A DNA stretch of 64,000 nt from the NCBI RefSeq assembly GCF_001735805.1, contig NZ_CP017248.1:4216001-4280000 (forward strand), read 5' to 3'. This document shows, one piece after another, positions 39,657 through 55,422 of this stretch. Source of the DNA: Streptomyces fodineus. GTDB taxonomy: Bacteria > Actinomycetota > Actinomycetes > Streptomycetales > Streptomycetaceae. The notes beneath the pieces are model-generated. The model did not search any database, was not told the DNA's origin, and saw nothing but the letters and a program-made list of their open reading frames with translations. Each line of letters starts with the position of its first letter. Position 1 is the stretch's first letter. A program made the translations under genes and the position numbers.

Positions 39657-39715
39657 TCCCGTGTGGCGGCGCCAGGATTCGAACCTGGGAAGGCTGAGCC
39701 GGCAGATTTACAGTC
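39655..39715. other. attL, 61-bp direct repeat with tRNA-Tyr 3' remnant
   Basis: These 61 bases are identical to 55332-55392. On the minus strand 39664-39715 hold the 3' part of tRNA-Tyr from the anticodon (GTA) through the variable arm, T-arm and acceptor strand. The 5' half is absent, so this copy is a non-functional tRNA fragment left by site-specific integration. Confidence 0.95.
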
Positions 39716-39863
39716 CCCTCAAGATCGCACCTCGAAAGCTGCTCTGACCTGCCGGTTTAGCCGGAGTCACCCCCGGATAGCGGTGTGTCGTCCACGTCTC
39801 GTCCTGATCATGAAAAATCCGTCCACGAATCGACCGGAGGAAGCGTGACCCATGGCCGCTACG

Positions 39864-39877
39864 CTGGTACGCACCAC
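39864..39877. promoter_or_regulatory. Operator-like palindrome before the GntR-Nudix gene
   Basis: CTGGTACGCACCAC matches the perfect palindrome CTGGTGCGCACCAG (42009 and 42033) at 12 of 14 positions. It lies 25 bp upstream of the ATG at 39902. This suggests autoregulation by the GntR domain. Confidence 0.55.
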
Positions 39878-39901
39878 GGCAGAACGGAGAGTGCTCCGGG
39901 G

Positions 39902-40690: not shown

Positions 40691-41822
40691 GCAGGTCGAC
40701 GCGCCGGCGCTGCCGCACTGAACCGGTGCGGCTCGCCAGCAACCTGGCCTGTCGCAGATGGGTGTTCGCATCGTCGTATTCGGTCCTGGCAAGGTGCGCT
40801 TGTGCTAGGTCCGCGTGGAGTCCCGCGCGGGCACGCACAAAGGTCGGGTCCATCACCTCAAGGGCGTCATAGAGGCTGGTCACCGCTTCACCATCACCGA
40901 GCAGGGCGAGCACGTTGCCGCGCCATCGAGCAAGATGCCCGCCGTTCAGGAAGATGCTGAGCATGTCAGGGTCCCGATCCTCGGGGCCCGGTGGGATCAC
41001 GCCCACGGCCGCGTCCAGCGCACGCTGGGAGTCGTCCGCCATTCCGGCGTGCGCGCACAGTTCAGCTTCGGCCGCATGCAACCATGCCCGCAGTCGGGGC
41101 GACCCCGACTGGCCAAGGGTGCGCTGAGCGTCACGTACGAGATCGACCCCTAGCGTCGGCCGTCCGGCATCGCAGAGTACGTATGCCTGCTCCCCCATGG
41201 CGTGGGCCAGGTACATCGGGGCTTCCGCATCTCGTGCCGCGCTCTTCGCCAACTCGTAATGCCGCCAAGCTCGTTCGACTGCGCCGGAGTCAATCGCCTG
41301 CCACGCAGCGAGCGTGGACGCTCCAGCGAGCGCTAGCGCCACGGGCCGCCGCGCAGCAGGCAACACGGCAAAGTTCAGCGCGTCTTCGAGAGCGGCGAGA
41401 TGCCCTGTCATCTGGTCGATGAGGCCTGCGGCACCCCTCTCCCGATCCATGGTCCGGAGTAGTTCGGTCTGGGCGTTGAACGCCTCCACCATGGACGTGC
41501 TGACGCTGCTGGCGGAATCGATCCGGCTCAGCAAGTCGTCGTAACCGTCGGCCATTGGAAGCGTCGACTTCTCTGAAATCCCCCTCAGTTCGGCGTCCGT
41601 GACACCCAGGAGGTTGCGGAGGATTGCCGCGTAGCGGTCCGAGATCGAGCGCCGCCCGTTCTCCCACTCCGACACGTACACCCGCAGGCTCGCCGTTGAG
41701 GCTACGTCGGTGAGGTTCTGTCGGGCGTACTTCTCGATCTCACGGATGAGTCGTTCCTGAGACCAGCCGCGTGCAGTCCGCGCGTCTCGCAGTCCCGATC
41801 CTGCGCCCACAAGGCACCCCAT
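40674..41822 (-). CDS. XRE-family regulator with TPR-like sensor domain
   Basis: The 382-residue product has an N-terminal helix-turn-helix (about residues 8-80; LRDARTARGWSQERLI, then YVSEWENGRRSISDRYAAIL). A long all-alpha region follows with repeated Ala-rich helices (AWRHYELAKSAARDAEAPMY; FVRARAGLHADLAQAHLART) resembling tetratricopeptide repeats. Such proteins often respond to peptides or host state. It is divergent from the transfer/replication operon and converges with the GntR-Nudix gene. Confidence 0.88.
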   Translation of the reverse strand: MGCLVGAGSGLRDARTARGWSQERLIREIEKYARQNLTDVASTASLRVYVSEWENGRRSISDRYAAILRNLLGVTDAELRGISEKSTLPMADGYDDLLSRIDSASSVSTSMVEAFNAQTELLRTMDRERGAAGLIDQMTGHLAALEDALNFAVLPAARRPVALALAGASTLAAWQAIDSGAVERAWRHYELAKSAARDAEAPMYLAHAMGEQAYVLCDAGRPTLGVDLVRDAQRTLGQSGSPRLRAWLHAAEAELCAHAGMADDSQRALDAAVGVIPPGPEDRDPDMLSIFLNGGHLARWRGNVLALLGDGEAVTSLYDALEVMDPTFVRARAGLHADLAQAHLARTEYDDANTHLRQARLLASRTGSVRQRRRVDLLSERL

Positions 41823-42002
41823 TCGGCGTCGGCCCGATTGCTGCTAACCCATGGTGCCTCACATTGCCGCAGGTCAAAAGGGGTTAACACCAACCCTAAC
41901 TAGCCGTTCATGAACGTCAGTTGACTGCCGCAAGCACCCCTCCGGGCGGTCTCCTTGAGGTGCACCGCGAGGGGTCAACGCCACTCAATCCGGCGAACCA
42001 CC

Positions 42003-42046
42003 TTGACTCTGGTGCGCACCAGATGCAATCTACTGGTGCGCACCAG
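42003..42046 (+). promoter_or_regulatory. -35 element with paired operators for the transfer operon
   Basis: A TTGACT hexamer (42003-42008) abuts the first of two perfect 14-bp palindromes CTGGTGCGCACCAG (42009-42022, 42033-42046; 24 bp apart). A protein bound there would cover the -10 region; the best -10 after 17 bp is CAATCT, which is weak. A near-copy precedes the GntR-Nudix gene. Confidence 0.6.
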
Positions 42047-42375
42047 TTCACGGAGCTGGCTCCGGTTCGCGGTGCGTGTACTACCCGGCACCACCCTGCG
42101 GCCATCAGGCCGAAGGGGCGCGGCAGACACAGCCCGTCGGCTGTCAGACCCGGTGCGAACAACCTGGACAGCGGTCCACCAGCGCAGGGAGAACGAACTC
42201 CGCAGGCTGGTGAGTGCATTGGCACTGAGAGGGCGTACCGGAGGGGCAAGACGGCCCCGTTGAACGGCGTACCGATAGGACCGGGCGGCATGGATTCCCA
42301 GTGCCGTCACGAACGGACTAGGCACTTCCTCACGTTGGGCGTGAGAGCCGAAACGGGCGATGTCCAGGGAAAACC

Positions 42376-42409
42376 ACGGCCGCTGCGCTTCGAGCGCTCA
42401 CGCGGCCGT
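42376..42409 (+). terminator. Stem-loop upstream of the first small gene of the operon
   Basis: ACGGCCGC (42376-42383) pairs with GCGGCCGT (42402-42409), and GCGCT/AGCGC forms an inner stem. It could be a terminator or attenuator in the long leader of the operon. Confidence 0.5.
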
Positions 42410-42759
42410 CTTGCACTGCTTCACCCCTGTTGACCTCAACTGATGGGAAGTCCAGTGCACCGACGAAGACTGTGGGCGCCGCCGCGACGGATCGGCCGGC
42501 GGACGCCAGTACGTCATCCCGGTCCGTGAGCGGAACACGCGCTCGAGGCCAACCCGATCCCCTCTCTCTACCTGCCATCGCAGCGGTTAGCGCTGCGGCC
42601 GGTTGCCTCCCTCGCCCGTCCGGTCCCGCACTCGGTGCGGCGGTCGTACGGGCGGGGCGTGGGGAGCCGGATCGACCGACTTCAACGGCGCGCGGCTCCC
42701 GGGGTGCCTCCCGGGAGCCGCTGTTCGGGCCGTTCCACCATCCGAGGAGCAAACGACCC

Positions 42760-43020
42760 ATGAAGATTCTCTCCCTTCCCATGCCGTCCGCGATCGACTC
42801 GACCGAGCAGGACCAGGAACCGACGGCCGCGGAGCTGAACGCGATCGCTGCCGAGACGCCGCTGATCGAAGCGGAGGTGGAGCTGCTGGACGTGCGGATC
42901 GCACTGATGGACCGCACGCCGAGCGAGCTGGACAAGCGACGGCTGCGCAAGGCGCTGCACCGCGTACTGACCGCGCGGGCGGCGCTGGCCAACCGTGCCG
43001 TTTCTGGGGAGGCGGCATGA
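42760..43020 (+). CDS. DUF6284-like small AICE protein
   Basis: The 86-residue acidic helical protein has core LIEAEVELLDVRIALMDR and a basic C-terminal helix KRRLRKALHRVLTARAA. It resembles the DUF6284 proteins common at the start of actinomycete AICE operons; function is unknown. GAGGAG lies 10 bases upstream of the ATG. Its stop overlaps the next start as ATGA. Confidence 0.75.
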   Translation: MKILSLPMPSAIDSTEQDQEPTAAELNAIAAETPLIEAEVELLDVRIALMDRTPSELDKRRLRKALHRVLTARAALANRAVSGEAA

Positions 43021-43346
43021 GCGAGGGTCTGACCCTGGACGACCTGTCCGTGCCGCTGCGGGCAGTGCGCCTGCTCGCTGCGGACTTCGGGCACTTGCCG
43101 GCACCCGTGCTGGAGGTGACCGACATCTTCCCGAACCGGCTCAAGCTGCGCTTCCACGACGGCTTGGACACGTTCGAGTCGTGGCGTGCGGCGCTGGGCA
43201 TCGCTCCCGACGCCGTGACCCACGGCACGCAGAACGGCGGCGGCACGCGCGTCCTCCAGGCGTCCGTCGAGTACGCGGGCGCCACGCTGGAGCTGGTGGC
43301 CTTCGGCCAGATTCCCGCCTCGGGGTCGGACGGGGGTGCCGCGTGA
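43017..43346 (+). CDS. Hypothetical AICE protein
   Basis: The product is 109 residues and no family is recognised. It looks like a small alpha/beta domain (VLEVTDIFPNRLKLRFHDG; LQASVEYAGATLELVAFG) and is translationally coupled on both sides by 4-bp overlaps. Similar small proteins sit between DUF6284 and DUF2637 genes in other Streptomyces elements, by recollection. Confidence 0.75.
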   Translation: MSEGLTLDDLSVPLRAVRLLAADFGHLPAPVLEVTDIFPNRLKLRFHDGLDTFESWRAALGIAPDAVTHGTQNGGGTRVLQASVEYAGATLELVAFGQIPASGSDGGAA

Positions 43347-43876
43347 TCCGCATCGTCACCGCAGCGCGACTGCTGCGCATGAGCGCGGAAACCGAGCAGG
43401 CCCGCACTCGTGCCCGTGAGGTACAGGGACAGGCGGCTGCCGCCTGGTCCCGGCACGTGAGGGAGCTGTACGCCGTCACCGACCGCGCGGAGCGGGCCGA
43501 GACGGTCACGTCCGAGCTGGACGAGATCGTCGCTCGCGCGATGGAGGAGCTGTCCGCCGCACAGCAGGAACTGCTGCTGAAGGACATCGAGATTCGCCGA
43601 CTGCGCGAGGAGTTGCAGGCTGGGCCGGTGGAGGGGCAGACGCTGACGGTGCTGCTGCACTACGGCGAGCCGCACACCATCTACGCCTCCCGCGAGGACG
43701 CTTTCGCCGACACCGCCGCCCACGGCATGCCGGCGGACCACGTGTGGCAGCGCTGCGATGAACGCCCGGCCGCCGCGTTCACGTGGCGGTGTGAGGCGTT
43801 CATCTACAACGCCCCATCCAACGGTTTCCGCCGCGCTCACACGCCCGAGCCGAGGCCGGTGGAGGGGGCGGCATGA
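43343..43876 (+). CDS. Coiled-coil hypothetical AICE protein
   Basis: The 177-residue product starts at a GTG that overlaps the upstream stop (GTGA). Residues about 12-90 form a long charged helix with coiled-coil character (TVTSELDEIVARAMEELSAA; LLLKDIEIRRLREELQ). A small C-terminal domain with two cysteines follows (CDERPAAAFTWRCEAFIY). Function is unknown; position suggests a transfer accessory. Confidence 0.75.
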   Translation: MIRIVTAARLLRMSAETEQARTRAREVQGQAAAAWSRHVRELYAVTDRAERAETVTSELDEIVARAMEELSAAQQELLLKDIEIRRLREELQAGPVEGQTLTVLLHYGEPHTIYASREDAFADTAAHGMPADHVWQRCDERPAAAFTWRCEAFIYNAPSNGFRRAHTPEPRPVEGAA

Positions 43877-44880
43877 ACAGCGTTCAGACCCGTTCAGCAG
43901 AACGCGCCCTCTCAGGCGGCACCTGGCTGATCGTGTGCGGGGCGATGCTCTACTCCATCCTCACCGTCACGCCCCTGATGGCCAAGCACACGGCCGATCA
44001 GTGGGCCTGGACGGCGCCGATCCTGCCGCTCGTGGTGGACGCCGCGGTCGTCATCGTGGTCAAGCTCGATGACGTGCTGGCCCGCCTGGGCGGGCACGGC
44101 GGCCGATGGCCCATCACGCTGCGGTGGATGACCGGCCTGATGACGCTCGCGCTGAACACAGCCGACTCCGCGTTGAAAAAAGACCTGGTCGGCGTGGCTG
44201 TCCACGCGGTGGCACCGCTGCTGCTGATCGTCACCGCAGAGACTTCGCTGGCCTACCGGCGGGCGATCGCCGCGGCGGTGGCGCGGCTGGAGGAGCAGCG
44301 GCGTGCCGAGCGTGAGGCAGCCGAGCAGGTGGCACGCGAGCGTGAGGAGGACGCCCGCCGGCAGGCCCGCGAGGAACGCGAGCACGCCGCGATGTTGGCG
44401 CGTGAACAGCGTGAGCACGAGACGGCTTTGGCCCGTGAACAGGCCGAGCGGGAAGAGCGGCGCTGGCGCGAGGAACAGGAGCGTAAGGCCGCTGTGGGGA
44501 TGGCTGAGCGGGCCGAGCGTGAACGCCGTGAACGCGAGCGTGAACAGCGCGAGCGGGACCGTGAACACGCCGAGCGGGAAGCCAACGCCCGCCGTGCGCG
44601 TGAGCGCGCGGAGCGCGAGGCGCGTGAACGCCGTGAACAGGTCGAGCGTGAGGAGCGGGCCGAGCGTGAACGCGCCGCGCTGCTGGCGCGCGGCCCGGCC
44701 GCGGGCAAGCTGCCCGAGGGCGAGGCGCGCGCGATTGTGGCCGCCGCGTTCGGTGCGGAGCTCTCGGTGCGGTCCGCGGCGGAGCTGTGCGGCTGGTCGG
44801 TGGGCTGGGTCTCCGCCCGCTACGCCGAACACCGCGACCCGGACGCGGGCGGGGCTGAGTTGGCTATCGCGAGCCGCTGA
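43873..44880 (+). CDS. DUF2637 (SpdB-like) spread protein with charged helix and C-terminal HTH
   Basis: The 335-residue product has about four membrane helices in its first 120 residues (WLIVCGAMLYSILTVTPLMA; PILPLVVDAAVVIVVKLDD; AVAPLLLIVTAETSLAYRR). A long Arg/Glu-rich helix follows (about residues 135-285), then a helix-turn-helix-like end (SVRSAAELCGWSVGWVSARY). DUF2637 proteins accompany TraB in intramycelial plasmid spreading. The charged helix plus DNA-binding end could tether element DNA to the membrane; that is inference. Confidence 0.82.
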   Translation: MNSVQTRSAERALSGGTWLIVCGAMLYSILTVTPLMAKHTADQWAWTAPILPLVVDAAVVIVVKLDDVLARLGGHGGRWPITLRWMTGLMTLALNTADSALKKDLVGVAVHAVAPLLLIVTAETSLAYRRAIAAAVARLEEQRRAEREAAEQVAREREEDARRQAREEREHAAMLAREQREHETALAREQAEREERRWREEQERKAAVGMAERAERERREREREQRERDREHAEREANARRARERAEREARERREQVEREERAERERAALLARGPAAGKLPEGEARAIVAAAFGAELSVRSAAELCGWSVGWVSARYAEHRDPDAGGAELAIASR

Positions 44881-45218
44881 TGGCCGCCATCCCCGTCTAT
44901 CCCTGGCGGCTCGCCCCTGAGGGGCTGGCCACCCGCCGCCAGTTGCGCGAGAAGGGGCTTCGGCCGGGTGGTCAGGATGTGGCCGCCCAGTTGGAGCGTC
45001 CGCGGCGCCGGCGCGGGCCGCTGGTCGCCTACCTGTACTCGATCGAGCTGGCCAAGCCGGTCCGGCCGATGACGCCCGCCAAGTGGGCGTCCCTGGCCAA
45101 GGCGAACGCCGCCCGTCGCAGGTGCCCCGAGTGCGGCCGGGATGCCGGCTACGTCATCCCGCCCTCGCTCGGCACGTGCGTGACCTGCGCCTACCCCGAG
45201 GAACAGCGCGCCGCATAA
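44880..45218 (+). CDS. RRQRL-motif zinc-binding protein
   Basis: The 112-residue protein contains RRQLREKGLRPGGQDVAAQL (the RRQRL-type motif) and two CxxC pairs (CPEC and CVTC) for zinc. It occurs in many Streptomyces integrative elements next to the DUF2637 gene. The ATG overlaps the upstream stop (TGATG). Role unknown. Confidence 0.82.
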   Translation: MAAIPVYPWRLAPEGLATRRQLREKGLRPGGQDVAAQLERPRRRRGPLVAYLYSIELAKPVRPMTPAKWASLAKANAARRRCPECGRDAGYVIPPSLGTCVTCAYPEEQRAA

Positions 45219-45294
45219 GCCCTGTTGGCAGGCCCGGCCGGCAACTTTCCACGGCCCCGGCCGGGCCCTACTCCCCAAGAGGAGTGCACTCAGC

Positions 45295-46872
45295 ATGACG
45301 GAACTCAGCACCGAGCCGGTAGCCGTCGAGGCTGCCGCAACCGAGACTTCCCCACCCGCCCCCGCACCCACCGAGCAGACGCCGGCGGCGGCCGAGGTGG
45401 AGCACACGCCCGGCGGCTGGCCGGTCGTCCCCCTCGCCCTGTCCGGGGCGAACACCACCGTCGGCACGGTCGCCGCTGCCTCCCTGGCCGGCGGCCCCGT
45501 CGCCGCCCTCGTCGCCGCGACCGGCTTCGTGGTCCTGGGCACGTTCGCGGCGGCCCGTTCCCGCAACCCCGGCCCCCGGCGTGAGGCGCGGCGGGCCGCA
45601 GCGCGCGCCGCCGGCCGGGCCGCTGCCTCCCGCACCACGCCCCGCAGGCCAGGCGCCGGAGCAGGCAGCGCCGGGAGCCGTTCGGCTGCCTCCCGCATGG
45701 GCGGCATGGGTAATCGCTCTGGGCGAGTGCCTTCCCAACACCGACGCGGCTCCGGATCCCCCTTGCGGCACAGCACCACTGGCGCGGGCGGGAAGACGCG
45801 CACCGGCGCCGGTCACGGCTTGTCCGGCCGCGCAACTGGCGCTGTAGGCCGGGGCCTGGGCCGAGTGGGACAGGTCCGGAACCTGCGGACGCAGCAGGCT
45901 GCGGGCGGTTCGCGTGCGGACAAGCGGGCCGGTACTACCGCGGCGCGCCGTGCGGTCGCCGATGCCCGCCGCAACGCCCGCGCCAACACCACCACACGCC
46001 GTCCGGGCGACCGGGGTGGTGTGGGTCGCCGCATGCTCGCGGCTGCTGCCGGCCGGGTCCGCGCCGGGCGAGACAGGGCGGTCGCCCGTACCCGAGCCCG
46101 GCGGGATGCTCGCACCGGTGCCGCCGTCAACGCGCAGCGCGCCGCGGTACGCCGGGCACCGGCCCGCAGGGCGGCCCGGCAGGCGCTGAGGCGTTCCGCG
46201 GCCCGGTTCCACGGCCGCCGCCTGCTCGCCGCCCTGCTCGCCCTGCCCATCGGCCTGTTGGGCTGCCTGACCACCTGGATCGGACGCAAACTCAACATCC
46301 CCTGGCTGATGCACCCCGGCCGCCGCCTCTACCGGCGCCTGGCCCGCACGGCTGCCGAGCAGCGCGCGGAGCGCGACGAGGCAACCCGCCAGCAACTGCG
46401 GGAGCAGGAAGCTGCGGCCGATGCGGAGGCCGCCGAGGACGGCGCCGCCGGTATCGCCGATCGCGTCGAGCGGCCAGCCGCCGAAATCCCCGCCCATGCC
46501 ACACCCGAGGTGAGTGAAGGAGAGCACGTGTCCGGTTTCCGGTTCGAAGAGCACGCGGCCGAGATGGAGCAGGCCGCCAACTCCTACGACCCCGACGACT
46601 GCATGGAGATCCTGGCCATGGTCGAGGGACTGCCGGCCGCGCTGACCAGCGTGGCGAGCGTGATGCGGATCCTCGCGGAGCGCTCCGACAGTGAGTTCCC
46701 GCTGGAAAAGGAGATCGCCGACGGCTTCAACGACATCTTCGGCGCCCTGATGAGCGCGGTCGCGGTCGCCGAGGACATGGGCCCGCTGTTCCGGCAGGTC
46801 CACGCCCAGGACATCGCCCGGCACGAGGACCCGCGCAACGGCCACGAGGCTGAGAAGGGCTGGAACGTCTGA
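45295..46872 (+). CDS. Large basic membrane-associated AICE protein
   Basis: The 525-residue product has an acidic/proline-rich start and a hydrophobic segment (about residues 45-82). A very Arg/Ala/Gly-rich middle of more than 200 residues follows, then a second hydrophobic stretch (RRLLAALLALPIGLLGCLTT) and an acidic helical C-terminal domain. The composition suggests a membrane protein that binds DNA or cell-wall polymer, like some Spd proteins. GAGGAG lies 10 bases upstream. It is directly followed by the TraB-like gene. Confidence 0.75.
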   Translation: MTELSTEPVAVEAAATETSPPAPAPTEQTPAAAEVEHTPGGWPVVPLALSGANTTVGTVAAASLAGGPVAALVAATGFVVLGTFAAARSRNPGPRREARRAAARAAGRAAASRTTPRRPGAGAGSAGSRSAASRMGGMGNRSGRVPSQHRRGSGSPLRHSTTGAGGKTRTGAGHGLSGRATGAVGRGLGRVGQVRNLRTQQAAGGSRADKRAGTTAARRAVADARRNARANTTTRRPGDRGGVGRRMLAAAAGRVRAGRDRAVARTRARRDARTGAAVNAQRAAVRRAPARRAARQALRRSAARFHGRRLLAALLALPIGLLGCLTTWIGRKLNIPWLMHPGRRLYRRLARTAAEQRAERDEATRQQLREQEAAADAEAAEDGAAGIADRVERPAAEIPAHATPEVSEGEHVSGFRFEEHAAEMEQAANSYDPDDCMEILAMVEGLPAALTSVASVMRILAERSDSEFPLEKEIADGFNDIFGALMSAVAVAEDMGPLFRQVHAQDIARHEDPRNGHEAEKGWNV

Positions 46873-46874
46873 CC

Positions 46875-48983
46875 ATGGCCACCACCGCCACGAAGCAGCA
46901 GCCCAGTGGCCCGGTGCTGGACTGGGCGGCCGGTCACGGACCCGTGACCGGCGCCCTGTCCGCCACCACCGGAGCCTTCGCCGTCGCCACCACCGGCGCC
47001 GCAACCTCCATGCCGCCCAGCTGGGCCTTCACCGTCGGCGCCGCCGGCGCCCTCGGCCACACCGTCGCCGGTATCCGGGTGCGCTACGCCGGCCGCACCC
47101 TGGCCACCCGCGCCGCCTCCTGGCTCGTCGGCGCAGGCTGGACCACCTGGGCCATGACCCACGGCCCGCTCACCTGGGCCGCCCTGGGATCCCTGGCCAC
47201 CATCGGCGTCGGGATCGGCGCCGCCGCCCGCTCCGTCGCCCTCTTCGAGGAGGCCCGTGAGGAAGAGGCGATCGCCGCCGAGCAGCGAGCCATCGCGCGG
47301 GAGTTGTCCGCGGAGCGGCGGGCGATTGCTGAGGAGTGGGTGGAGCGCATTCGGCGGATCTGCTCCATCAGCGTGCGTGTCCTCGCGGTGGAGATGTGGC
47401 CCACCGGTACCGGCTACTCCCTGGACCTGGAGCCGCAGGGCGGCATCACCTATGACCGCATCGCCCAGTACTCGGTGCAGCTGTCCGCGGATGCCCGGCT
47501 GCCGCACGGCTGCACCGCCACCGCCTCCCAGGGCGTCCATCAGGGCCGGGTCATCCTGGACGTGACCACGGTCAACGTCCTGCAGACGGAGTGCGCCTAT
47601 CCCGACGACTACGGGCCCCTGTCGCTGCTGACCGGGATCCCGTGGGGGGTGCGCCCCAACGGCGAGATCGTCTGCGCCTACCTGCGCGAGCAGTGCGCCC
47701 TCGTCGTCGGCCCGACCGGTTCGGGCAAGACGAACATGGTGCACACGATCCTGGGCGGGTTCGCCCGCGCCGAGGACATGCTCACCTGGGTCATCGACCT
47801 CAACGCCGGATCCGCCGGCCTGCCCTGGGTCCTGCCCGCGCTCAACGGGGAGATCGAGCGGGCCGACGGCCTGCCCGTCCGGCCCGGCATCGACTGGCTG
47901 GCCGGCTCGTATGAGGAAGCCATGCTGATGCTCGATGCCGCACTCGCCATCGGCTTGCACCGCAAGCGGGCCTACCAGGACCTGCTGGCCAAGGCGAACA
48001 CGGACCTGCTCCCGGTCAGCGCCCAGATTCCTCAGATCATGCTCGTGATCGATGAGGGCGCGGAGATCCTGACCAGCACCGACCGGGAGATGAAGCAGCT
48101 CGCGAAGAAGATCCTGGAAGTCATCCGCATGCTGCGCGCCATGGGCATCCGCACCGTGCTCACCGCCCTCGGCGCGACCGGCAGCGTGCTGGGCAACCTC
48201 ATGATCCGCCGGGAAGCCAAGGTCCGCGTCGCGCTAACCGGCGGCGAGACCGAGGGCATGGACCTGGGCAAGATGTTCCCCGGCCGCCGCGGCCTGCGCG
48301 TCGAGCAAGCCCCGTACAAGGGTGCGGGGTTCATGGGCACGCCGGAGTCCCCGGCCGCGCTGTTCAAGGCCTGGCGGATCCTGCCCAACCAGATCCGCCA
48401 GATCACCGCCGCCACCTCCGACCGGCACCCGTGCCTGGACGGCATCTCCGCCAAGGCCGCAGGGCCCGCCTACGCCCGCCGCTGGGACGCCGACCGCACC
48501 GCGTGGATGCGCGACCTCACCCCCGACGACCCCGCAGGCACCGACACCGAGCCGTCGGTATCCGTTGGGGGCGGGCTGAACCTGGCGGCGCTGCGCGGCC
48601 GGGAGGCGGAGCAGACCTCGCCGGAGGATGAGATGCTGCGCCGGTTCCGGGAGCAGATCGACGCCCAGTTCGCCACCGCCCCGGACCCGCACACGCCCGT
48701 GGAGCAGGCTCCGCCGGCCGCAGGGCAGGGGCTGAACCTGTCCGCGCTGCGCGGCGAGCAGGACAGCCCCGCCCAACAGGCGGCGCTCGCCGTGCTGCTC
48801 GCCGCCGGCACGGAGGGCACGGGCGCCTCCGCGATCGCCCGCGCGCTCGCCGACGAGTACGGCACCAACCGTCAGACGGTCGTCGGCTGGCTCAAGGCCT
48901 GGGTGCACGACGGCACCGCCGTCCGCGTCGGAGAGGGCACCAAGGCCCGCTACGTCCACCACCGGCACGCCCCCGAAAGCTGA
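46875..48983 (+). CDS. TraB/FtsK-type conjugative DNA translocase
   Basis: The 702-residue protein is predicted to move double-stranded element DNA between hyphae as a hexameric pump. It has N-terminal membrane segments (about residues 20-125) and a coiled region (EEAIAAEQRAIARELSAERR). The FtsK/SpoIIIE motor has Walker A GPTGSGKTN (about 279-287) and Walker B LVIDEGAE (about 390). A C-terminal winged helix of about 60 residues resembles FtsK gamma and the TraB DNA-recognition domain. It starts three bases after the upstream stop; the array at 49068 lies 85 bp downstream. Confidence 0.92.
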   Translation: MATTATKQQPSGPVLDWAAGHGPVTGALSATTGAFAVATTGAATSMPPSWAFTVGAAGALGHTVAGIRVRYAGRTLATRAASWLVGAGWTTWAMTHGPLTWAALGSLATIGVGIGAAARSVALFEEAREEEAIAAEQRAIARELSAERRAIAEEWVERIRRICSISVRVLAVEMWPTGTGYSLDLEPQGGITYDRIAQYSVQLSADARLPHGCTATASQGVHQGRVILDVTTVNVLQTECAYPDDYGPLSLLTGIPWGVRPNGEIVCAYLREQCALVVGPTGSGKTNMVHTILGGFARAEDMLTWVIDLNAGSAGLPWVLPALNGEIERADGLPVRPGIDWLAGSYEEAMLMLDAALAIGLHRKRAYQDLLAKANTDLLPVSAQIPQIMLVIDEGAEILTSTDREMKQLAKKILEVIRMLRAMGIRTVLTALGATGSVLGNLMIRREAKVRVALTGGETEGMDLGKMFPGRRGLRVEQAPYKGAGFMGTPESPAALFKAWRILPNQIRQITAATSDRHPCLDGISAKAAGPAYARRWDADRTAWMRDLTPDDPAGTDTEPSVSVGGGLNLAALRGREAEQTSPEDEMLRRFREQIDAQFATAPDPHTPVEQAPPAAGQGLNLSALRGEQDSPAQQAALAVLLAAGTEGTGASAIARALADEYGTNRQTVVGWLKAWVHDGTAVRVGEGTKARYVHHRHAPES

Positions 48984-48985
48984 TC

Positions 48986-48994
48986 GCTTGTCGC
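48986..48994. repeat. Inverted copy of the GCGACAAGC motif
   Basis: GCTTGTCGC here is the exact reverse complement of GCGACAAGC at 49066-49074. It lies just after the traB stop and could pair with the array as single-stranded DNA or act as an oppositely oriented binding site. Confidence 0.6.
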
Positions 48995-49067
48995 CTGTCG
49001 TCCCGCGGAGACAGAAGCCGTCCAGGGTGGGTCTGGAGACCCGGAAACGTCTTGTGACCTGGGACGC

Positions 49068-49139
49068 GACAAGCGACAAGACAAGACAAGCGACAAGCCG
49101 CACGACAAGCCAGACGACAAGCAACGCGACAAGCCACAT
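49068..49139. repeat. Six-unit 12-bp GACAAG array, candidate clt/TRS
   Basis: GACAAG begins at 49068, 49080, 49092, 49104, 49116 and 49128, exactly every 12 bp, followed by six more variable bases. Two extra copies (49075, 49085) lie out of phase. The array follows traB directly, where Streptomyces plasmids keep clt, the site whose short direct repeats are read by the TraB winged helix. Function is inferred from position and repeat form. Confidence 0.75.
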
Positions 49140-49204
49140 CACGGGCCGCACCCCAACCCCGGGGCGTGGCCCGCCGCGTTGAAACGACCACCGGGAGGCC
49201 GCTC

Positions 49205-49396
49205 GTGATCGTGACCCTGTCCGCCGTCGCACTCCTCGGGGTGCTGGCCTTCGTCCTGCTGCGCGGCCGTTACGTCGGCCCGTTCAGCGCCCTCGTGCTG
49301 TTCCTGTTCGGCTTCTTCACCGCCGGCACCGGCGCCGCCACAACCATCCGCGCCGTATGCCGCGCACTCGCCGAAGCCGCCCACCAGCTCACCTGA
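49205..49396 (+). CDS. Small membrane protein
   Basis: The 63-residue protein has two hydrophobic helices (VTLSAVALLGVLAFVLLRGR; ALVLFLFGFFTAGTGAATTI). The GTG at 49205 is preferred over an ATG at 49166 because CGGGAGG lies six bases upstream and the extra residues are not hydrophobic. It is probably a spread/transfer accessory. Confidence 0.78.
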   Translation: MIVTLSAVALLGVLAFVLLRGRYVGPFSALVLFLFGFFTAGTGAATTIRAVCRALAEAAHQLT

Positions 49397-49415
49397 CCCA
49401 CGGCAGGAGCCCGCC

Positions 49416-49916
49416 ATGCCCGACCACGACCCCGCGGCCTGGCAGCCGCGCATGACCGACGCCGACGCCGCCGCCGAGGCGCGCCGGATCATCGCCGACG
49501 CCTACCGGCCCCTGCCACAGATACCGACCGCCTACCGCGACACCACTCCGCTGCCCGCCTACGGCCCCACGCCGCCGGTCCCACAGCCGGACCATCGGAT
49601 CGTCCCCGCCTGGGCCGCCGGAACCGCGGTCGCCGGAATCGGCGTCGGCGCCACCTGCGTCGGACTCGGCTGCGGAATCTGGCTCGCCTGCAAGGGATTC
49701 GCCGCCGTGACCCTGACCAGCGTCCTATTCGTCACCCTCCCGATCGCCGCCGTGGCCGCTGTCGCCACGGCCATCGGTGCCGCCCTGCGGTCGCTGAAGG
49801 CCACGCACACCGTCACCCACCACCACTACGCCGGACCCGTCCGTCTGGAGAACAACACGATCACCGCGCCCGCGTACGGGCTTATTGCCCGCAACCGCCA
49901 CGAACTCAACCGCTGA
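49416..49916 (+). CDS. Membrane protein, spread-type
   Basis: The 166-residue product has a Pro/Ala-rich soluble N-terminus and two transmembrane helices (about residues 64-90 and 98-125). A short tail with THTVTHHHYAG follows. CAGGAG lies just upstream of the ATG. The layout resembles small Spd proteins, but there is no firm family call. Confidence 0.75.
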   Translation: MPDHDPAAWQPRMTDADAAAEARRIIADAYRPLPQIPTAYRDTTPLPAYGPTPPVPQPDHRIVPAWAAGTAVAGIGVGATCVGLGCGIWLACKGFAAVTLTSVLFVTLPIAAVAAVATAIGAALRSLKATHTVTHHHYAGPVRLENNTITAPAYGLIARNRHELNR

Positions 49917-49927
49917 AGGGAACTCCT

Positions 49928-50089
49928 GTGGACATCGACACGATGCGCGATCTGACCCGTGAGGCTCTGGAAGCCCGCTCCGACATCGACTCCGTCTCGG
50001 AGATCGAGGAGGGCGCCTCCGATCAGCGCGTCCTCGGCGCCGAGACCGCCGACGGCACCCTCTTCTTCGTCGTCATCCGGGACGTCTGA
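49928..50089 (+). CDS. Very small acidic hypothetical protein
   Basis: The product is 53 residues, strongly acidic (AREALEARSDIDSVSEIEE-like N-terminal helix, then GTLFFVVIRDV). The GTG start has GAAGGGA upstream. It lies between two genes with short spacers in the same direction, and third codon positions are GC-rich, so it is probably real. Confidence 0.6.
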   Translation: MDIDTMRDLTREALEARSDIDSVSEIEEGASDQRVLGAETADGTLFFVVIRDV

Positions 50090-50102
50090 GAGGAGGTTCC
50101 CG

Positions 50103-50273
50103 ATGTTCGAGATCCGCGTCATCTGCGACCCGGACGACGCCGACCGCATCAGCCGGGTCCTGGCCGGCGCGTTCAACACCAGCCCGGCACGCCAGTACCC
50201 CACCCGCGATGGCAAGCGCACCCGCCTCTACATCACCGCCGACCACCGGCCCGACAACCCCGAAAGCGAGTGA
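50103..50273 (+). CDS. Small hypothetical protein
   Basis: The product is 56 residues: MFEIRVICDPDDADRISRVL at the start, then a basic end (YPTRDGKRTRLYITADHR). It has an excellent ribosome-binding site (GAGGAGG). It is a compact beta-alpha-beta-like protein of a type common in AICEs; function unknown. Confidence 0.72.
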   Translation: MFEIRVICDPDDADRISRVLAGAFNTSPARQYPTRDGKRTRLYITADHRPDNPESE

Positions 50274-50277
50274 TCCC

Positions 50278-50745
50278 ATGTCGTTCGGAGAGACCCCGAT
50301 CACCCTCGTCGGCAACCTGACCGACGACCCCGAGCTGAAGTTCACCGAGGGCGGCGCCGCGCTCGCGAAGTTCACCATCGCCGTCACCCCGCGCAGCTTC
50401 GACCGCAACAGCAACCAGTGGAAGGACGGAACCACCGCGTTCTACCGCTGCGCCGCCTGGCGCACCCTCGCCGAACACGTCGCCGACAGCCTCAGCAAGG
50501 GCTCGCGCGTCGTCGCCATGGGCCGGATGCGGCAGCACGACTGGACCACCGACACCGGCGAGAAGCGCTCCATGCTCGCCGTGGAGGTCGACGACATCGG
50601 CGCGTCCGTCCGCTTCACCACCGTGACCATCAACGGAAAGCACCCCGCCCAGAAGAGCCAGGCCGGCGACGACCCGTGGGCCGCGACCAGCGCCCCCGCC
50701 AGCGGCGGGGGCAGCGCGGCGGAGGGAGCCGAGCCGCCGTTCTAG
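50278..50745 (+). CDS. ssb: Single-stranded DNA-binding protein of the AICE
   Basis: The 155-residue OB-fold SSB has the start SFGETPITLVGNLTDDPELK and a core with YRCAAWRTLAEHVADSLSKG. A Gly/Ser-rich linker ends in AEPPF, a shortened version of the acidic DDIPF-type tip. It is element-encoded and lies just before the Prim-Pol gene, consistent with a role in AICE replication or transfer. Confidence 0.93.
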   Translation: MSFGETPITLVGNLTDDPELKFTEGGAALAKFTIAVTPRSFDRNSNQWKDGTTAFYRCAAWRTLAEHVADSLSKGSRVVAMGRMRQHDWTTDTGEKRSMLAVEVDDIGASVRFTTVTINGKHPAQKSQAGDDPWAATSAPASGGGSAAEGAEPPF

Positions 50746-50835
50746 AGACGCCCGGGGCGACCGCCCGATCTCGCCAAAGACACGCGGTCGCCCCGGCCCA
50801 ACCAGTCCACAACAGACCTGTTGGAGGCATCCAGC

Positions 50836-51759
50836 ATGACTCATCGCACCGACGCGCGGCGAGCAGACCTACTCGCCGCCGCTCTGGCCGCCGCCGGGCG
50901 CGGCTGGCACGTCCACCCGCTCCGCCCCGGCGGCAAGGCCCCCGCGCTGCACGGCGAGCACGCGTGCCCGCGTAGCGGCCCGTGCGCCGGCGGCCATGTG
51001 AAGTGGGAGCAGCGCGCCACCACCGACCCCGACCGCATCCGCGCCGCCTGGACGACGGGCCCCTACAACGTCGGTATCGCCACCGGGCCGTCCGGCCTGA
51101 TCGTCATCGACCTGGACGTGCACAAGGACGAGAAGGACAAGGGCAGTTCGGACGCGCCTTGCGGCGCGACATCCTTTTCGGCGCTCTGCGAGCGCGCCGG
51201 ACAGCCATGGCCGACGACCTACACGGTGCGGACGCCCAGCGGCGGCATGCACCTGTACTTCTCGGTGCGGCCCGGCATCGAGCTGCACAACAGCGCCCGC
51301 ACCCTCGCCCCGTACGTCGACACCCGCGCATGGGGCGGCAACGTCGTAGCGGCGGGCAGCATCACCCCCCAGGGCGTCTATGAGGCCGTCAACCGGTACC
51401 CGGTGGCGGAACTGCCCGCGTGGCTGATGCGAGAGCTTCAGCGGCCCGCGCCCACACCGGTGGCCATGGCACCGCTCGTCGTCCCCGGGGCGGCCACCCG
51501 CCGGGCCACGGTCGCCCTGGACCGCGAGACCGCTGCCGTCCGGGGCACCGGGGAGGGCGGCCGGAACAACCGGCTGCTGGAGGGCGCCCGCGCCCTGGGG
51601 CGGTTCGTCGCATGGGGCGAGATCGCCCGGGACGTGGTGGAGGAGGCTTTTCAGGCGGCCGGTGAGGCGGCCGGACTGGCCCCGGGCGAGTGCCGGGCCA
51701 CCATCCGCAGCGCCCTGGACTGGTCGATTCGCACCTGCCGGCCCCGGGACGCCGCATGA
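50836..51759 (+). CDS. Bifunctional primase/polymerase (Prim-Pol) replication protein
   Basis: The 307-residue product has an archaeo-eukaryotic-type primase fold. The metal motif is IVIDLDVHK (about residues 95-103), followed by TPSGGMHLYFSV and GGNVVAAGS. A C-terminal helical region reads NNRLLEGARALGRFV. RepPP-type AICEs use such proteins with an ATPase as the replication initiator instead of a rolling-circle Rep. GGAGG lies eight bases upstream of the ATG. It is coupled to the next gene. Confidence 0.9.
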   Translation: MTHRTDARRADLLAAALAAAGRGWHVHPLRPGGKAPALHGEHACPRSGPCAGGHVKWEQRATTDPDRIRAAWTTGPYNVGIATGPSGLIVIDLDVHKDEKDKGSSDAPCGATSFSALCERAGQPWPTTYTVRTPSGGMHLYFSVRPGIELHNSARTLAPYVDTRAWGGNVVAAGSITPQGVYEAVNRYPVAELPAWLMRELQRPAPTPVAMAPLVVPGAATRRATVALDRETAAVRGTGEGGRNNRLLEGARALGRFVAWGEIARDVVEEAFQAAGEAAGLAPGECRATIRSALDWSIRTCRPRDAA

Positions 51760-52172
51760 CCCCCCGCCCTGAAAAGCCCACCCCACCCACGTCCGAGCGC
51801 TCGCGCCCGGCTGGTCGTGGCGCCGACGGAGGCCGTGGCACGAAGAGCGACGGCCGACAGGCCGTCCTTTCAGCTCTTCGTTCTGACCCGCACCCGACCG
51901 GTCACGCCCGCCACGACGCCGACGACCTGACGTCGGAGAAGCCGGGGATCCGCATCTACGCCCCGCCCGTCTACCGCCACCACTACGACGGCGCCCGCTG
52001 GTCTAAGCGCTACGGCGCCACCCCCACCGCCGCCTACGCCTGCCCCTGCGGCCAGACCAATACCGCCCGCGGACAGCACGCCGTGGCCGCCTTGGTCGCC
52101 GAGTACGAGGACCACAAGGCCGCCTGCACCGGTACGCCCGCCCCGCACGCCGAAAGGAGGAACGCCGCATGA
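51756..52172 (+). CDS. Hypothetical protein between Prim-Pol and DUF3631 ATPase
   Basis: The 138-residue product has a Pro/Arg/Ser-rich first half. A compact C-terminal part follows with CPCGQTNTARGQHAVAALV and a later Cys, possibly a zinc-binding domain. It overlaps both neighbours by 4 bp (ATGA), so all three are translated as a unit. Likely a replication accessory. Confidence 0.75.
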   Translation: MTPRPEKPTPPTSERSRPAGRGADGGRGTKSDGRQAVLSALRSDPHPTGHARHDADDLTSEKPGIRIYAPPVYRHHYDGARWSKRYGATPTAAYACPCGQTNTARGQHAVAALVAEYEDHKAACTGTPAPHAERRNAA

Positions 52173-53425
52173 CCAGCACCAACCCGCCCGCCCCGTCCAT
52201 CGACGGCGCCGCCCTGCTCGATGAGGTCGAAGCGTTCCACCGTCGCTTCAACATCTTCCCCACCGAGTCCGCGTACGTGGCCGTAACGCTGTGGGACGCG
52301 CACGCGCACCTGATCGACGCGTTCGACGGCACCGCCCGGCTCGCGTTTCTGAGCCCGGAGCCGGGGTCAGGCAAGTCCCGCGCACTGGAGATCGTGGAGA
52401 CGCTCACCCCGCGTGCAGTCACCACGGTCAACGCGTCCGCCAACGCCCTGTTCCGGCTGGTGGAGGCCGACGGGGGAACCCCGACACTGCTTTTCGACGA
52501 GATCGACACCGTGTTCGGGCCCAAAGCCGGGGGCAACGAAGAGGTCCGCGGCTTCCTGAACTCCGGCTACCGGCGCGGCGCCAAGTCCCTGCGCTGCGTC
52601 GGGGACGGCTCGAACCAGTCCACCGAGTGGTTCTCCTCGTTCTGCGCCGTCGCCATGGCCGGACTCGGCTCCCTGCCGGACACGATCCTGACCCGCTCGG
52701 TCATCATCCGGATGCGCAAGAAGGCCCCCAACGAGAAGGCCGAACCGTACCGCCGACGCGTCCACGAAAAGCAGGGTCACGCCCTGCGTGACCGGCTCGC
52801 CGAGTGGGCCACCACCGTGCACGACCAGGTAGCCGAAGCCTGGCCCGAGATGCCCGATGGCGTCTCCGACCGGCCCGCCGACGTGTGGGAACCCCTGCTC
52901 GCCGTCGCCGACGCGGCCGGCGGCCACTGGCGCGATCGAGCCCGCGCCGCCTGCGTCGAACTCATCAAGGCAGCGGGCGAGGGCAACGAAGCCTCACTCG
53001 GGGTCCGCCTGTTGACCGACCTGCGCGACAAGGTGTTCTGCGGCGCCGACCGCATGCCCACCGCAGCCATCCTCGAAGTCCTCCTCGGACTCGATGACGC
53101 CCCCTGGGCCGACATGAACGACGACGGCAAACCCCTCACGGCCCGCGGCCTGTCCAAGCTGCTGAGCCAGTACGTCCGCCCCGACAACACTCCCATCCGG
53201 CCCCGGGGCATCCGTGTCGGCAGCGGCACCCCGAAGGGCTACTACGCCGAGGACCTGACCGACGCTTGGGCCCGCTACTGCCCCCCTCCCCCCGAGAAGT
53301 CCGCAACGTCCGCAACAGCCGCAACACCGCAGGTCAACGGGGGTGAATTCGTGGCGGAACACCCCGACGAAAGCCGCCACATGCTCGCGGAAACCGGCAC
53401 ACGCCCGCTGCGCATCGCAGGCTGA
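52169..53425 (+). CDS. DUF3631 ATPase/helicase-like protein
   Basis: The 418-residue P-loop ATPase has Walker A PEPGSGKSRALE (about residue 68) and Walker B LLFDEIDTVFG. The DUF3631 domain lies in the C-terminal half (GLDDAPWADMNDDGKPL; RPRGIRVGSGTPKGYY). Together with Prim-Pol it probably provides the helicase/primase pair for element replication. The last 40 codons contain three copies of a CCGCAAC heptamer that continues in the intergenic region. Confidence 0.88.
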   Translation: MTSTNPPAPSIDGAALLDEVEAFHRRFNIFPTESAYVAVTLWDAHAHLIDAFDGTARLAFLSPEPGSGKSRALEIVETLTPRAVTTVNASANALFRLVEADGGTPTLLFDEIDTVFGPKAGGNEEVRGFLNSGYRRGAKSLRCVGDGSNQSTEWFSSFCAVAMAGLGSLPDTILTRSVIIRMRKKAPNEKAEPYRRRVHEKQGHALRDRLAEWATTVHDQVAEAWPEMPDGVSDRPADVWEPLLAVADAAGGHWRDRARAACVELIKAAGEGNEASLGVRLLTDLRDKVFCGADRMPTAAILEVLLGLDDAPWADMNDDGKPLTARGLSKLLSQYVRPDNTPIRPRGIRVGSGTPKGYYAEDLTDAWARYCPPPPEKSATSATAATPQVNGGEFVAEHPDESRHMLAETGTRPLRIAG

Positions 53426-53550
53426 CCGGCCCAACGTCCCGAGGTGTCGCCGCGTCACCGCGCGGCGGCACCTATCCGCAACACAACCGGCATCCGCAAC
53501 AGATCCAAGCCGCTGACCTGCAATGTTGCGGCGTGGCGGATGTTGCGGAT
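53301..53550. repeat. CCGCAAC repeat cluster, candidate origin or Xis/Int region
   Basis: CCGCAAC occurs at 53301, 53310 and 53319 (9-bp spacing, inside the ATPase gene) and at 53476 and 53494. It is inverted at 53525 and 53542. The last four lie in extended ATCCGCAACA/TGTTGCGGAT arms in the 191-bp gap before xis. Such iterons could be the binding site of the replication protein or of Xis. Confidence 0.7.
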
Positions 53551-53616
53551 TTCCGGGAGGGGCTGAGCGACCCCTCCCTTCGTTTGTCCCTCCTGCTGTC
53601 CCAAGGAGATCCCTGC

Positions 53617-53826
53617 ATGAGCACCCCGGCCCGTAAGCGCCGCACGCCGAAGGACGAACTGGTGCCCCTGAGTGAGGCACTGGAAGAACTCCGTATCAGC
53701 CGCGCCACCTGGTACCGGTGGCGCAACCACGGCTACGCGCCGGAGGCCCGACGCACGCCGTCCGGCCGCATCTGCGTACGCCGAAGTGTCCTGGACGCCT
53801 TCAAGGACGAATTGGAAGCCGCGTGA
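53617..53826 (+). CDS. xis: Excisionase-like HTH protein
   Basis: The 69-residue MerR-like/Xis winged helix reads PLSEALEELRISRATWYRW, then a wing RRTPSGRICVRRS. AAGGAG precedes the ATG and the stop overlaps the integrase start (GTGA). In pSAM2- and SLP1-like elements the protein encoded just before integrase directs excision. Confidence 0.9.
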   Translation: MSTPARKRRTPKDELVPLSEALEELRISRATWYRWRNHGYAPEARRTPSGRICVRRSVLDAFKDELEAA

Positions 53827-55187
53827 CCGAGTGGAGCTACACCGTCAAGATCTGGGCCATCCGCAAGCGCGACTACCGGAAGCCCTATCAACTCCGCTGG
53901 AAGGTGGGCATCCGCCCGCATTCGGAGTCGTTCCTCACCCTGGGCCTGGCGGAGAGTCGCCGGGCCCAGCTCATCACCGCAACCCGTGAGGGCGAGCCGT
54001 TCGACGTGGACAGCGGGTTGCCGAAGTCCATGGTCGTGAAGGAGCGGGACATCTCGTGGTACGACCACGCCCGCAACTACATCGCCATGAAGTGGGACCA
54101 CTCCCCCGCCTCCACACGCCGCACGCTCGCCGAAGCAATGGCGACCGTGACGCCCGTCTTCGTGAAGGACACCAAGGGCATGCCCGACGCCAGAGCCGTG
54201 CGACGGGCCCTATATAGCTGGGCGTTCAACAAGAACCTCTGGAACGAGGAGACCCCCGCCGATGTCGCCAAGGTGCTGGAGTGGTTCAAGCGCAAGTCGC
54301 TGCCCACGTCGGCCCTGTCGGATCTCCTGCTGGCGCGGGCCGCTCTCAACGCCGTGTCCCTGAAGCTGGACGGGACAACCGCAGCGGCAGGAACCATCAG
54401 CCGAAAGCGCGCGATCTTCTACAACTCGCTGGAGTACGCCGTAGAGGCCGAACTCCTCGCCGACAACCCGCTCATCCGCATCAAGTGGAAGGCGCCGGAG
54501 CAGGTCGTAGAGGAAGTCGACCCCGAGTGCCTGCCGAACCCCGAACAGGCGGCCAAGCTGCTGGCCGCCGTGCGGGACCAGAGCCCGCGGGGCCGTCGGC
54601 TGGTGGCGTTCTTCGGCTGCATCTACTACGCGGCTGCGCGGCCGGCAGAAGTCATCGGTCTGCGGCGCCGTGATTGCGAGCTGCCCCGGCGCGGGTGGGG
54701 GCTGCTCCGACTGAGGGAAACTCGCCCACGCTCCGGCGCCGCCTGGACGGACAGCGGTGAGGCGCACGACAAGCGTGGGCTGAAGCACCGGCCCCGGCGA
54801 GCCGTCCGTCACGTACCGATCCCGCCCGAACTGGTCGCCCTGCTGCGGTGGCACCTCACCGCGTACGGCACCGCCCCGGACGGCCGCGTGTTCCAGACCA
54901 TGCGAGGCGGGTTGGTCCAGGACACGGGCTACGGGGAGGTCTGGGCCGAAGCCCGCTCGCGGGCTCTGACTCCTGGCGAGTTCGAATCGATCTTGGCCAA
55001 GCGCCCGTATGACCTTCGCCACGCTGCGGTGTCCACCTGGCTCAGCTCCGGCGTGGAGCCTCAGCTCGTGGCGGAGCGCGCCGGCCACAGCGTGGCGGTG
55101 CTCTTCCGGGTGTACGCCAAGTTCCTCAAGGACGGAGACGAGGCGGCCAACGCCAAGATCTCCGCCCGCTTGAGGCAGGCCGGGTGA
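53823..55187 (+). CDS. int: Tyrosine-recombinase integrase
   Basis: The 454-residue site-specific recombinase has an N-terminal AP2-like arm-binding part, a core-binding domain and a catalytic domain. The catalytic domain shows YYAAARPAEVIGLRRRD (first Arg), PYDLRHAAVSTWL (second Arg box, with Tyr where many have His), AERAGHS and the nucleophile in FRVYAKFL. The GTG at 53823 overlaps the xis stop. It lies 145 bp from attR, the usual AICE layout. Confidence 0.93.
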   Translation: MTEWSYTVKIWAIRKRDYRKPYQLRWKVGIRPHSESFLTLGLAESRRAQLITATREGEPFDVDSGLPKSMVVKERDISWYDHARNYIAMKWDHSPASTRRTLAEAMATVTPVFVKDTKGMPDARAVRRALYSWAFNKNLWNEETPADVAKVLEWFKRKSLPTSALSDLLLARAALNAVSLKLDGTTAAAGTISRKRAIFYNSLEYAVEAELLADNPLIRIKWKAPEQVVEEVDPECLPNPEQAAKLLAAVRDQSPRGRRLVAFFGCIYYAAARPAEVIGLRRRDCELPRRGWGLLRLRETRPRSGAAWTDSGEAHDKRGLKHRPRRAVRHVPIPPELVALLRWHLTAYGTAPDGRVFQTMRGGLVQDTGYGEVWAEARSRALTPGEFESILAKRPYDLRHAAVSTWLSSGVEPQLVAERAGHSVAVLFRVYAKFLKDGDEAANAKISARLRQAG

Positions 55188-55291
55188 CGGGCCAGGAATC
55201 CCGTCCACACTCCGTCCACGCACATCGAGATCGGGCGTTCGAACGCGAGACAGCGTGAGACAGTCCGCTGATCATCCCGAGATACGACAAG

Positions 55292-55328
55292 GGCCCCGTG
55301 ACCTGCTGTTCTCGCAGGTCACGGGGCC
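55292..55328 (-). terminator. Element-borne terminator copy behind tRNA-Tyr
   Basis: GGCCCCGTGACCTGC (55292-55306) pairs with GCAGGTCACGGGGCC (55314-55328). It is a diverged relative of the hairpin at 39613-39656 but lies inside the AICE. The element thus supplies the restored tRNA-Tyr with a replacement terminator. Confidence 0.85.
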
Positions 55329-55331
55329 TCT

Positions 55332-55392
55332 GTTCCCGTGTGGCGGCGCCAGGATTCGAACCTGGGAAGGCTGAGCCGGCAGATTTACAGTC
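55332..55392. other. attR, 61-bp direct repeat within tRNA-Tyr
   Basis: This copy is identical over 61 bp to 39655-39715. It covers the tRNA-Tyr sequence from the anticodon region to the 3' end plus 9 bases beyond. Crossover lies somewhere within it. Confidence 0.95.
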
Positions 55393-55422
55393 TGCTCCCT
55401 TTGGCCGCTCGGGCACACCGCC
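55341..55422 (-). tRNA. tRNA-Tyr (GTA), intact copy at the AICE border
   Basis: The 82-nt class II tRNA has acceptor GGCGGTG/CGCCGCC, anticodon loop CTGTAAA with GTA, a long variable arm and T-arm GGTTCGAATCC. Its 3' part is provided by the AICE after integration, so function is preserved. Confidence 0.96.

Follow-up and report, generated by a model that had tools for sequence, protein, structure and literature searches.

The region at positions 53300-53549 of the DNA analyzed here is highly likely to serve a 15.7-kb integrative and conjugative element of actinomycetes, capable of excision, as its replication origin (oriV), at which the C-terminal domain of the DUF3631 initiator-helicase encoded by the same element would bind. 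This DNA, hereafter the window, comprises 64,000 nt from Streptomyces fodineus (assembly GCF_001735805.1, contig NZ_CP017248.1, positions 4,216,001-4,280,000 of the forward strand), and all coordinates are those of the window. Sequence comparisons provide the evidence, namely the architecture of the array of repeats, its location at the 3' end of the DUF3631 gene, the concerted change of its copies, its independence from the integrase and the covariation of iteron bases with DUF3631 residues; they suggest that the repeats are very probably docking sites from which the element's own replication protein starts copying. The features on which the argument draws are as follows:

39655-55392: integrated AICE-like element, from attL to attR, in a tRNA-Tyr gene (15.7 kb)
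50278-50745: SSB
50836-51759, + strand: Prim-Pol (primase/polymerase; PF09250, E 7.1e-45)
52169-53425, + strand: DUF3631 (RepAM; PF12307, E 9.1e-60, 202 bits against a cut-off of 24)
53205-53246, + strand: predicted wing of DUF3631 (codons for residues 346-359), containing the two residues, 349 and 354, that track iteron bases 9 and 6, respectively
53300-53326, + strand: left arm, three direct 9-bp iterons TCCGCAACG TCCGCAACA GCCGCAACA, in DUF3631 coding DNA
53328-53336, + strand: left box CGCAGGTCA, seen in the sequence and kept in relatives
53442-53473: short inverted repeat with 13-nt arms and a 6-nt loop, lineage-variable and missing from some relatives
53475-53483 and 53493-53501, + strand: two direct middle iterons (TCCGCAACA)
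53513-53521, + strand: right box CTGACCTGC, the reverse complement of the left box core
53524-53532, 53532-53540 (degenerate CCGCCAC) and 53541-53549, - strand: right arm, three inverted iterons
53617-53826, + strand: xis-like HTH_17 protein (PF12728; excisionase PHROG)
53823-55187, + strand: tyrosine recombinase (int; PF00589, E 4.4e-4, below the cut-off; XerC/XerD models weak)

The repeat array and the element that carries it

Exact copies of CCGCAAC begin at 53301, 53310, 53319, 53476 and 53494 on the forward strand and at 53525 and 53542 on the reverse strand, and all seven lie where an initial annotation of this DNA had placed them within 250 bp. Its description of the first three as direct copies 9 bp apart in coding DNA also holds, these being inside the DUF3631 gene, as does that of longer arms shared by direct and inverted copies: ATCCGCAACA at 53474-53483 and 53492-53501 is an exact inverted-repeat match of 53541-53550. 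Its count of two direct and two inverted copies in the second half needs to be extended; all four are present, but a third, degenerate inverted unit (CCGCCAC, appearing as GTGGCGG at 53533-53539), in register between the two inverted copies, had been overlooked. Because this eighth unit fills the gap between the inverted copies, the array is to be described as three direct, two direct and three inverted units. The boxes CGCAGGTCA and CTGACCTGC, absent from that annotation, also belong to the array, which consists of two mirror-image arms, the left with three units followed by CGCAGGTCA and the right with CTGACCTGC followed by three inverted units, with two direct units between them. The place of the right box is occupied by TGACC in 70 of 74 relatives.

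The element is bounded by two identical 61-bp repeats, 39655-39715 and 55332-55392, the latter inside the tRNA-Tyr gene (55340-55422, reverse strand). The gene order is Prim-Pol, orf138, DUF3631, xis and int, with the array spanning the end of the DUF3631 gene and the gap before xis. Further upstream, a transfer-type gene (46875-48983) shows AAA and EccCa matches, both sub-threshold, and in a similar plasmid record the gene at this place carries the annotations FtsK/SpoIIIE and TraB. In the accessible part of PMC3218068, DUF3631 is the domain called RepAM in the integrative and conjugative elements of actinomycetes; as in a RepAM-type element, a DUF3631 protein is encoded here, and the integration lies between direct repeats at a tRNA gene and is accompanied by a recombinase, albeit one with a weak domain match. 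CAGGTCA-like words are present in hairpins adjoining both of the 61-bp att repeats.

The density of the heptamer, from which a protein-binding region had been proposed, is weak evidence by itself. CCGCAAC occurs 27 times in the whole window against 14.0 expected, a count reached in one of 100 shuffles, and a scan of every 250-bp segment of the stretch, in 10-bp steps, for any heptamer with at least seven copies recovered four places including the array. As the three others, with CGTGAAC (44.4 kb), GACAAGC (48.9-49.2 kb) and CGGCGCC (47.0 kb), also reach this number, density alone is only mildly unusual, and the real evidence for the proposed binding region is conservation in relatives. Eight CGTGAAC copies lie at 44391-44680 within an open frame (43873-44880), in a repetitive charged-coding stretch. 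Just past the transfer-type gene, at 49067-49136, are seven direct GACAAGC repeats with an inverted GCTTGTC upstream of them (48987); we take these repeats to be a candidate clt (cis-acting transfer site) with TraB-type recognition repeats.

Conservation of the array plan among relatives

Two sets of relatives were compared. The first, class B (n = 63), comprises 60 of the 65 listed same-genus DUF3631 places at 209-221 bits, two circular plasmid records and the window; the second comprises 80 named loci from another collection, some of whose genomes are common to the first set. The exact heptamer is rare in class B and was dropped as a marker of the array, most relatives being without CCGCAAC. 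What recurs is a plan that opens with 9-bp units and a CGCAGGTCA-like box, frequently followed by an inverted repeat, and continues with single direct units and CTGACCTGCG up to a final set of inverted units. The repeats, whose conservation had been named as a test of their significance, are hence mostly not kept as exact heptamers, but their architecture is. A box-free chain search with base 6 left open found both arms at the DUF3631 3' end in 58 of the 63 class-B loci (all except L031, L032, L036, L048 and L075) and in 74 of the 80 named loci, where L185 and L200 count as misses partly through stop-finding problems. Like an iteron origin, the array is thus a conserved cluster of direct repeats in a fixed place by the initiator gene. 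A pattern of boxes plus iterons, which the chain search replaced, had recovered both sides in only 35/63 loci, as the spelling of the left box varies in many elements.

A motif-blind scan for tandem 7-mers on both strands gave a signal near the DUF3631 stop in 56/63 class-B loci and elsewhere in 2/63; owing to its degenerate unit, the window is not among the loci that pass this strict test. Similarly, when each whole locus was searched for its best long inverted repeat, this lay at the array in 55/63 class-B loci, and over all groups in 67/102 loci against 8.9 expected. The exact scans fail in 13/63 class-B loci and in other loci, and outside class B strict scans often fail, with successes in 1/16 (tandem) and 4/16 (inverted repeat) class-A loci and in 8/23 loci of other families in either scan. 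Inspection by eye, which for class A covered 18 printed loci that mostly fail the strict scans, reveals other kinds of iterons in class A and these families, e.g. GCCGTCCCA, GTAACGGCC and TGTTACGCC, often with the same boxes. The two circular records among the relatives, which are extrachromosomal, also carry the array.

The copies within an array switch variant together. The dominant unit in relatives is TCCGCTAC, TCCGCCAC, TCCGCAAC or TCGGTTAC. Positions 3, 5 and 6 are the same in the two arms of 58/58 class-B loci that have both (0/20000 permutations, with kinship left in); the arm variants also agree in 72 of the 74 named loci, the other two being mixed A/C arrays. Relatives differ in the frame in which the left arm is translated, and in one of them (L062) it comes after the stop codon, indicating that it is the DNA and not the protein that is kept. 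A mirror order of the units inside the arms is suggestive only, being among the best arrangements in 21/24 informative loci and strictly unique in 5.

The box CTGACCTGCG alone was rejected as a marker of origins. It is not specific to them, as the host genome has 117 copies against 49 for the reversed control and similar words occur near the att sites. Among IMG/VR contigs classed as viral, five (L226, L242, L244, L245 and L259) have DUF3631 genes with 9-bp-spaced repeats at or after the gene end, and some of these also carry CGCAGGTCA.

DUF3631 as candidate initiator and its covariation with the iterons

The AlphaFold2 model of the DUF3631 protein (pLDDT 82.7) has an AAA+ part that matches MCM helicases (Z 17.2 to 3f8t, 222 residues aligned, rmsd 3.1), and the top rows of a Foldseek search with it are nearly all MCM or replisome proteins. 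Its C-terminal domain taken alone is predicted with a pLDDT of 91.8; the fold matches that it returns are weak, the highest Z being 6.0, and for the most part winged-helix proteins, and Foldseek yielded none with an E of 0.001 or below. The protein accordingly models as an MCM-like AAA+ helicase with a C-terminal winged-helix-like domain, and we propose it as an initiator-helicase. In the model, residues 349, 353 and 354 are located in the hairpin between strands 346-347 and 356-359, i.e. the position of a predicted wing.

This prediction can be set beside the variation of the iterons. Across 124 distinct DUF3631 proteins, aligned over 371 columns with the iteron-encoded tail excluded, 18 of the 20 columns best associated with the distinction between TACA and TACC arrays fall at residue 274 or beyond, a part with 98 of the 371 columns (p 1.3e-9). 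For AAC against CAC arrays no such concentration in the C-terminal domain is seen among the 12 best columns (4/12, p 0.39), of which residue 354 ranks first. Two residues stand out. Residue 354 is T, F or V/I/L where base 6 is A, C or T, respectively, in 122/122 proteins, under a grouping rule for base 6 (any A unit) that was fixed after the exceptions were known: T354 accompanies any CCGCAAC unit (29/29), F354 occurs with CCGCCAC only (17/17) and V/I/L354 goes with T at base 6 (76/76). The four CAC proteins with T354 are those whose arrays also contain AAC units. Residue 349 is K or R according to whether base 9 is C or not in 121/122 proteins, with K in 39/40 TACC and R in 36/36 TACA, 26/26 AAC and 21/21 CAC proteins. 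The normalized mutual information reaches 1.0 for residue 354 with base 6, against 0.74 for the next of the 371 columns, and 0.93 for residue 349 with base 9, against 0.77 for the next. When the right arm alone is considered, which is non-coding in the window, both pairings are seen in 122/122. These pairings suggest that single amino acids of DUF3631 read single bases of the iteron.

Both pairings were also seen in 60/60 further distinct proteins, mostly close relatives; these derive from a held-out set of 90 loci, 7 of which were without both arms and 23 identical to training proteins or to each other, and the test is a mild one because 53 of the 66 distinct proteins in that set share 90% identity or more with one used for training. 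On the tree, base 6 changed nine times and base 9 seven times, and independent residue-base pairs number only 4 on well supported branches, too few for significance alone. Given that the C-terminal domain adjoins the left arm, exchange of domain and array as one cassette could help create such covariation.

The following course of events may be envisaged for the excised element. DUF3631 would bind the 9-bp units of both inverted arms through its winged-helix-like C-terminal domain, with wing residues 354 and 349 reading iteron bases 6 and 9, respectively. An MCM-like ring of DUF3631 would then assemble on each arm, the DNA between the arms would be opened, and Prim-Pol together with the host polymerase, or else host enzymes, would prime and start synthesis. 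Physical binding, the rings, the site of opening, replication and its direction are all steps that we infer. As to the opening, the mean of 73 loci displays a mild rise in A+T just before the right box (42-43% against about 31-35% around it) and no clear AT-rich unwinding region in the array.

Alternative readings and comparable systems

The residue-base pairing supports binding and says nothing on its outcome, and the most persistent alternative is that DUF3631 or another protein of the element binds the array only to regulate rep or xis-int, the origin being elsewhere. Iteron-bound initiators often autoregulate, and the array does sit between rep and xis-int. Nevertheless, eight units in two long inverted arms with boxes are unusual for a simple operator, other families and circular records alike have the plan downstream of their helicase gene, and the parallel arrays of SaPI and SCCmec are origins in the accessible text of PMC7581432, which together make a purely regulatory role unlikely. 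A bound origin may still affect xis-int transcription as a side effect.

The initial annotation had left the choice between an origin of the Prim-Pol module and Xis/Int arm sites, at which excisionase or integrase would bind to control excision and xis-int expression. In favor of the latter, some 70 bp separate the right arm from xis, which int directly follows. Gene trees, in which L032 and L036 (37 and 40% identical) were omitted and L075 (AAC) and L048 (TACC) hand-labelled, point the other way. Over the same 57 loci with both proteins, the iteron class requires 8 changes on the DUF3631 tree and 25 on the Int tree, against a shuffled mean of 26 in each case, so that with respect to the integrase it is distributed at random, unlike a site that follows its recombinase lineage. 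Moreover, one locus (L081) combines a 96% identical DUF3631 and a near-identical array with an integrase outside the set matching that of the window. As the class follows the DUF3631 tree and ignores the Int tree, and in view of L081, the array belongs to the DUF3631 module, which is evidence against arm sites. The arrays are further separated from the other att end by about 15 kb and have units inside the DUF3631 gene, and we regard arm sites as very improbable. The origin of the Prim-Pol/DUF3631 module, by comparison, is strongly supported by position, concerted variants, the DUF3631 tree and residue-base covariation.

Equally, it is very doubtful that the boxes or iterons are start sites for Prim-Pol rather than DUF3631 sites. 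Prim-Pol is encoded beside DUF3631 in most class-B loci, and the CCPol-MP of SCCmec prefers priming at origin iterons (PMC7581432, accessible part), but the iteron class fits the Prim-Pol tree less well than the DUF3631 tree (17 changes against 7 over the same 49 loci). In addition, no Prim-Pol is listed within 20 kb in 15/16 class-A loci, a count in which one contig is only 11.5 kb long and one genome (G020) has a partial match about 10 kb away, and in which the arrays were judged by eye. Least probable of all is that DUF3631 (RepAM) nicks a double-strand origin for rolling-circle replication, as predicted for pMEA300-type elements by te Poele et al. from putative nick sites like those of the pC194 family (as quoted in PMC3218068), for DUF3631 models as an MCM-like AAA+ ATPase, and among 37 diverse DUF3631 proteins (10 of the 47 first-proposed rows of the structure alignment being omitted) G68, K69, D110 and E111 are invariant and no conserved histidine pair of an HUH motif was found, H47 alone being nearly invariant.

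An origin read by DUF3631 is reminiscent of several systems. In SaPI Rep and SCCmec Cch2, as far as described in the accessible part of PMC7581432, a helicase has a C-terminal DNA-binding domain, iterons lie directly downstream of its gene and a primase is encoded nearby; in SaPI the initiator-helicase recognizes the origin with this domain and the primase is co-encoded. The DUF3631 system has a comparable MCM-like AAA+ core and iterons at or after the end of the helicase gene, and PriRep1 (7pds) is among the Foldseek matches of the DUF3631 model, although the DUF3631 sequence matched no solved chain. SaPIs differ in hosts, iterons, boxes and plan of the arms. In SCCmec the C-terminal domain of Cch2 binds direct repeats downstream of an operon with a primase-polymerase, and these are three 5-nt iterons, in contrast to the eight 9-bp units in two inverted arms seen here (same source). 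Outside these groups, the oriV of the IncU plasmid RA3, from an unrelated host group, was mapped to the 3' end of its initiator gene (PMC9455977, accessible part).

Among actinomycete elements, the closest in content are the RepAM/Prim-Pol AICEs of the pMEA300 type, which have DUF3631 beside Prim-Pol in integrating elements; the accessible part of PMC3218068 gives neither origin nor iterons for them and quotes the rolling-circle prediction. The Streptomyces plasmid pWTY27 has a Prim-Pol RepB and a RepA whose binding target is a long inverted repeat composed of direct and inverted repeats of 7-8 bp, and replicates bidirectionally, according to the accessible text of PMC3583192; its iteron differs from that of the array. 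Another Streptomyces plasmid, pFP11, combines Prim-Pol, a rep gene and downstream iterons with CTGACCTGC adjoining. Its 573-aa Rep was rejected as a DUF3631 homolog, having neither a DUF3631 match nor a convincing profile match. The box is thus present in a plasmid with a Rep other than DUF3631, and a host factor may be what binds it. The iteron region of pFP11 (L093, 7620-7770) contains CCCTGACCTGCC beside inverted repeats.

Iteron origins and MCM-like initiators are already known; the DUF3631 origin and the apparent residue-base code look new, no description of a DUF3631 iteron origin having been found in the openly accessible literature that was searched. The balance of evidence leans modestly toward DUF3631 initiators being a large, uncharacterized group of MCM-like helicases in bacteria that bind origins according to a readable code (354: T-A, F-C, V/I/L-T; 349: K-C, R-not C), in which the whole array is rewritten at each switch, giving rise to compatibility groups, and in which a plan of fixed CGCAGGTCA boxes and changing 9-mers extends across actinobacterial elements and phage-like contigs. 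The analysis provides RepAM/Prim-Pol elements with a precise candidate oriV, a candidate initiator and a candidate reader domain, and the pairing of residues and bases is testable by point mutations. If true, it would account for the coexistence of several such elements in one genome and offer small origins for Streptomyces vectors with predictable compatibility. Tandem DUF3631-like genes, of which the extra copy is partial, were observed at two loci (G113:C332 11528-13542, L049, and G175:C9 179319-181225, L053).
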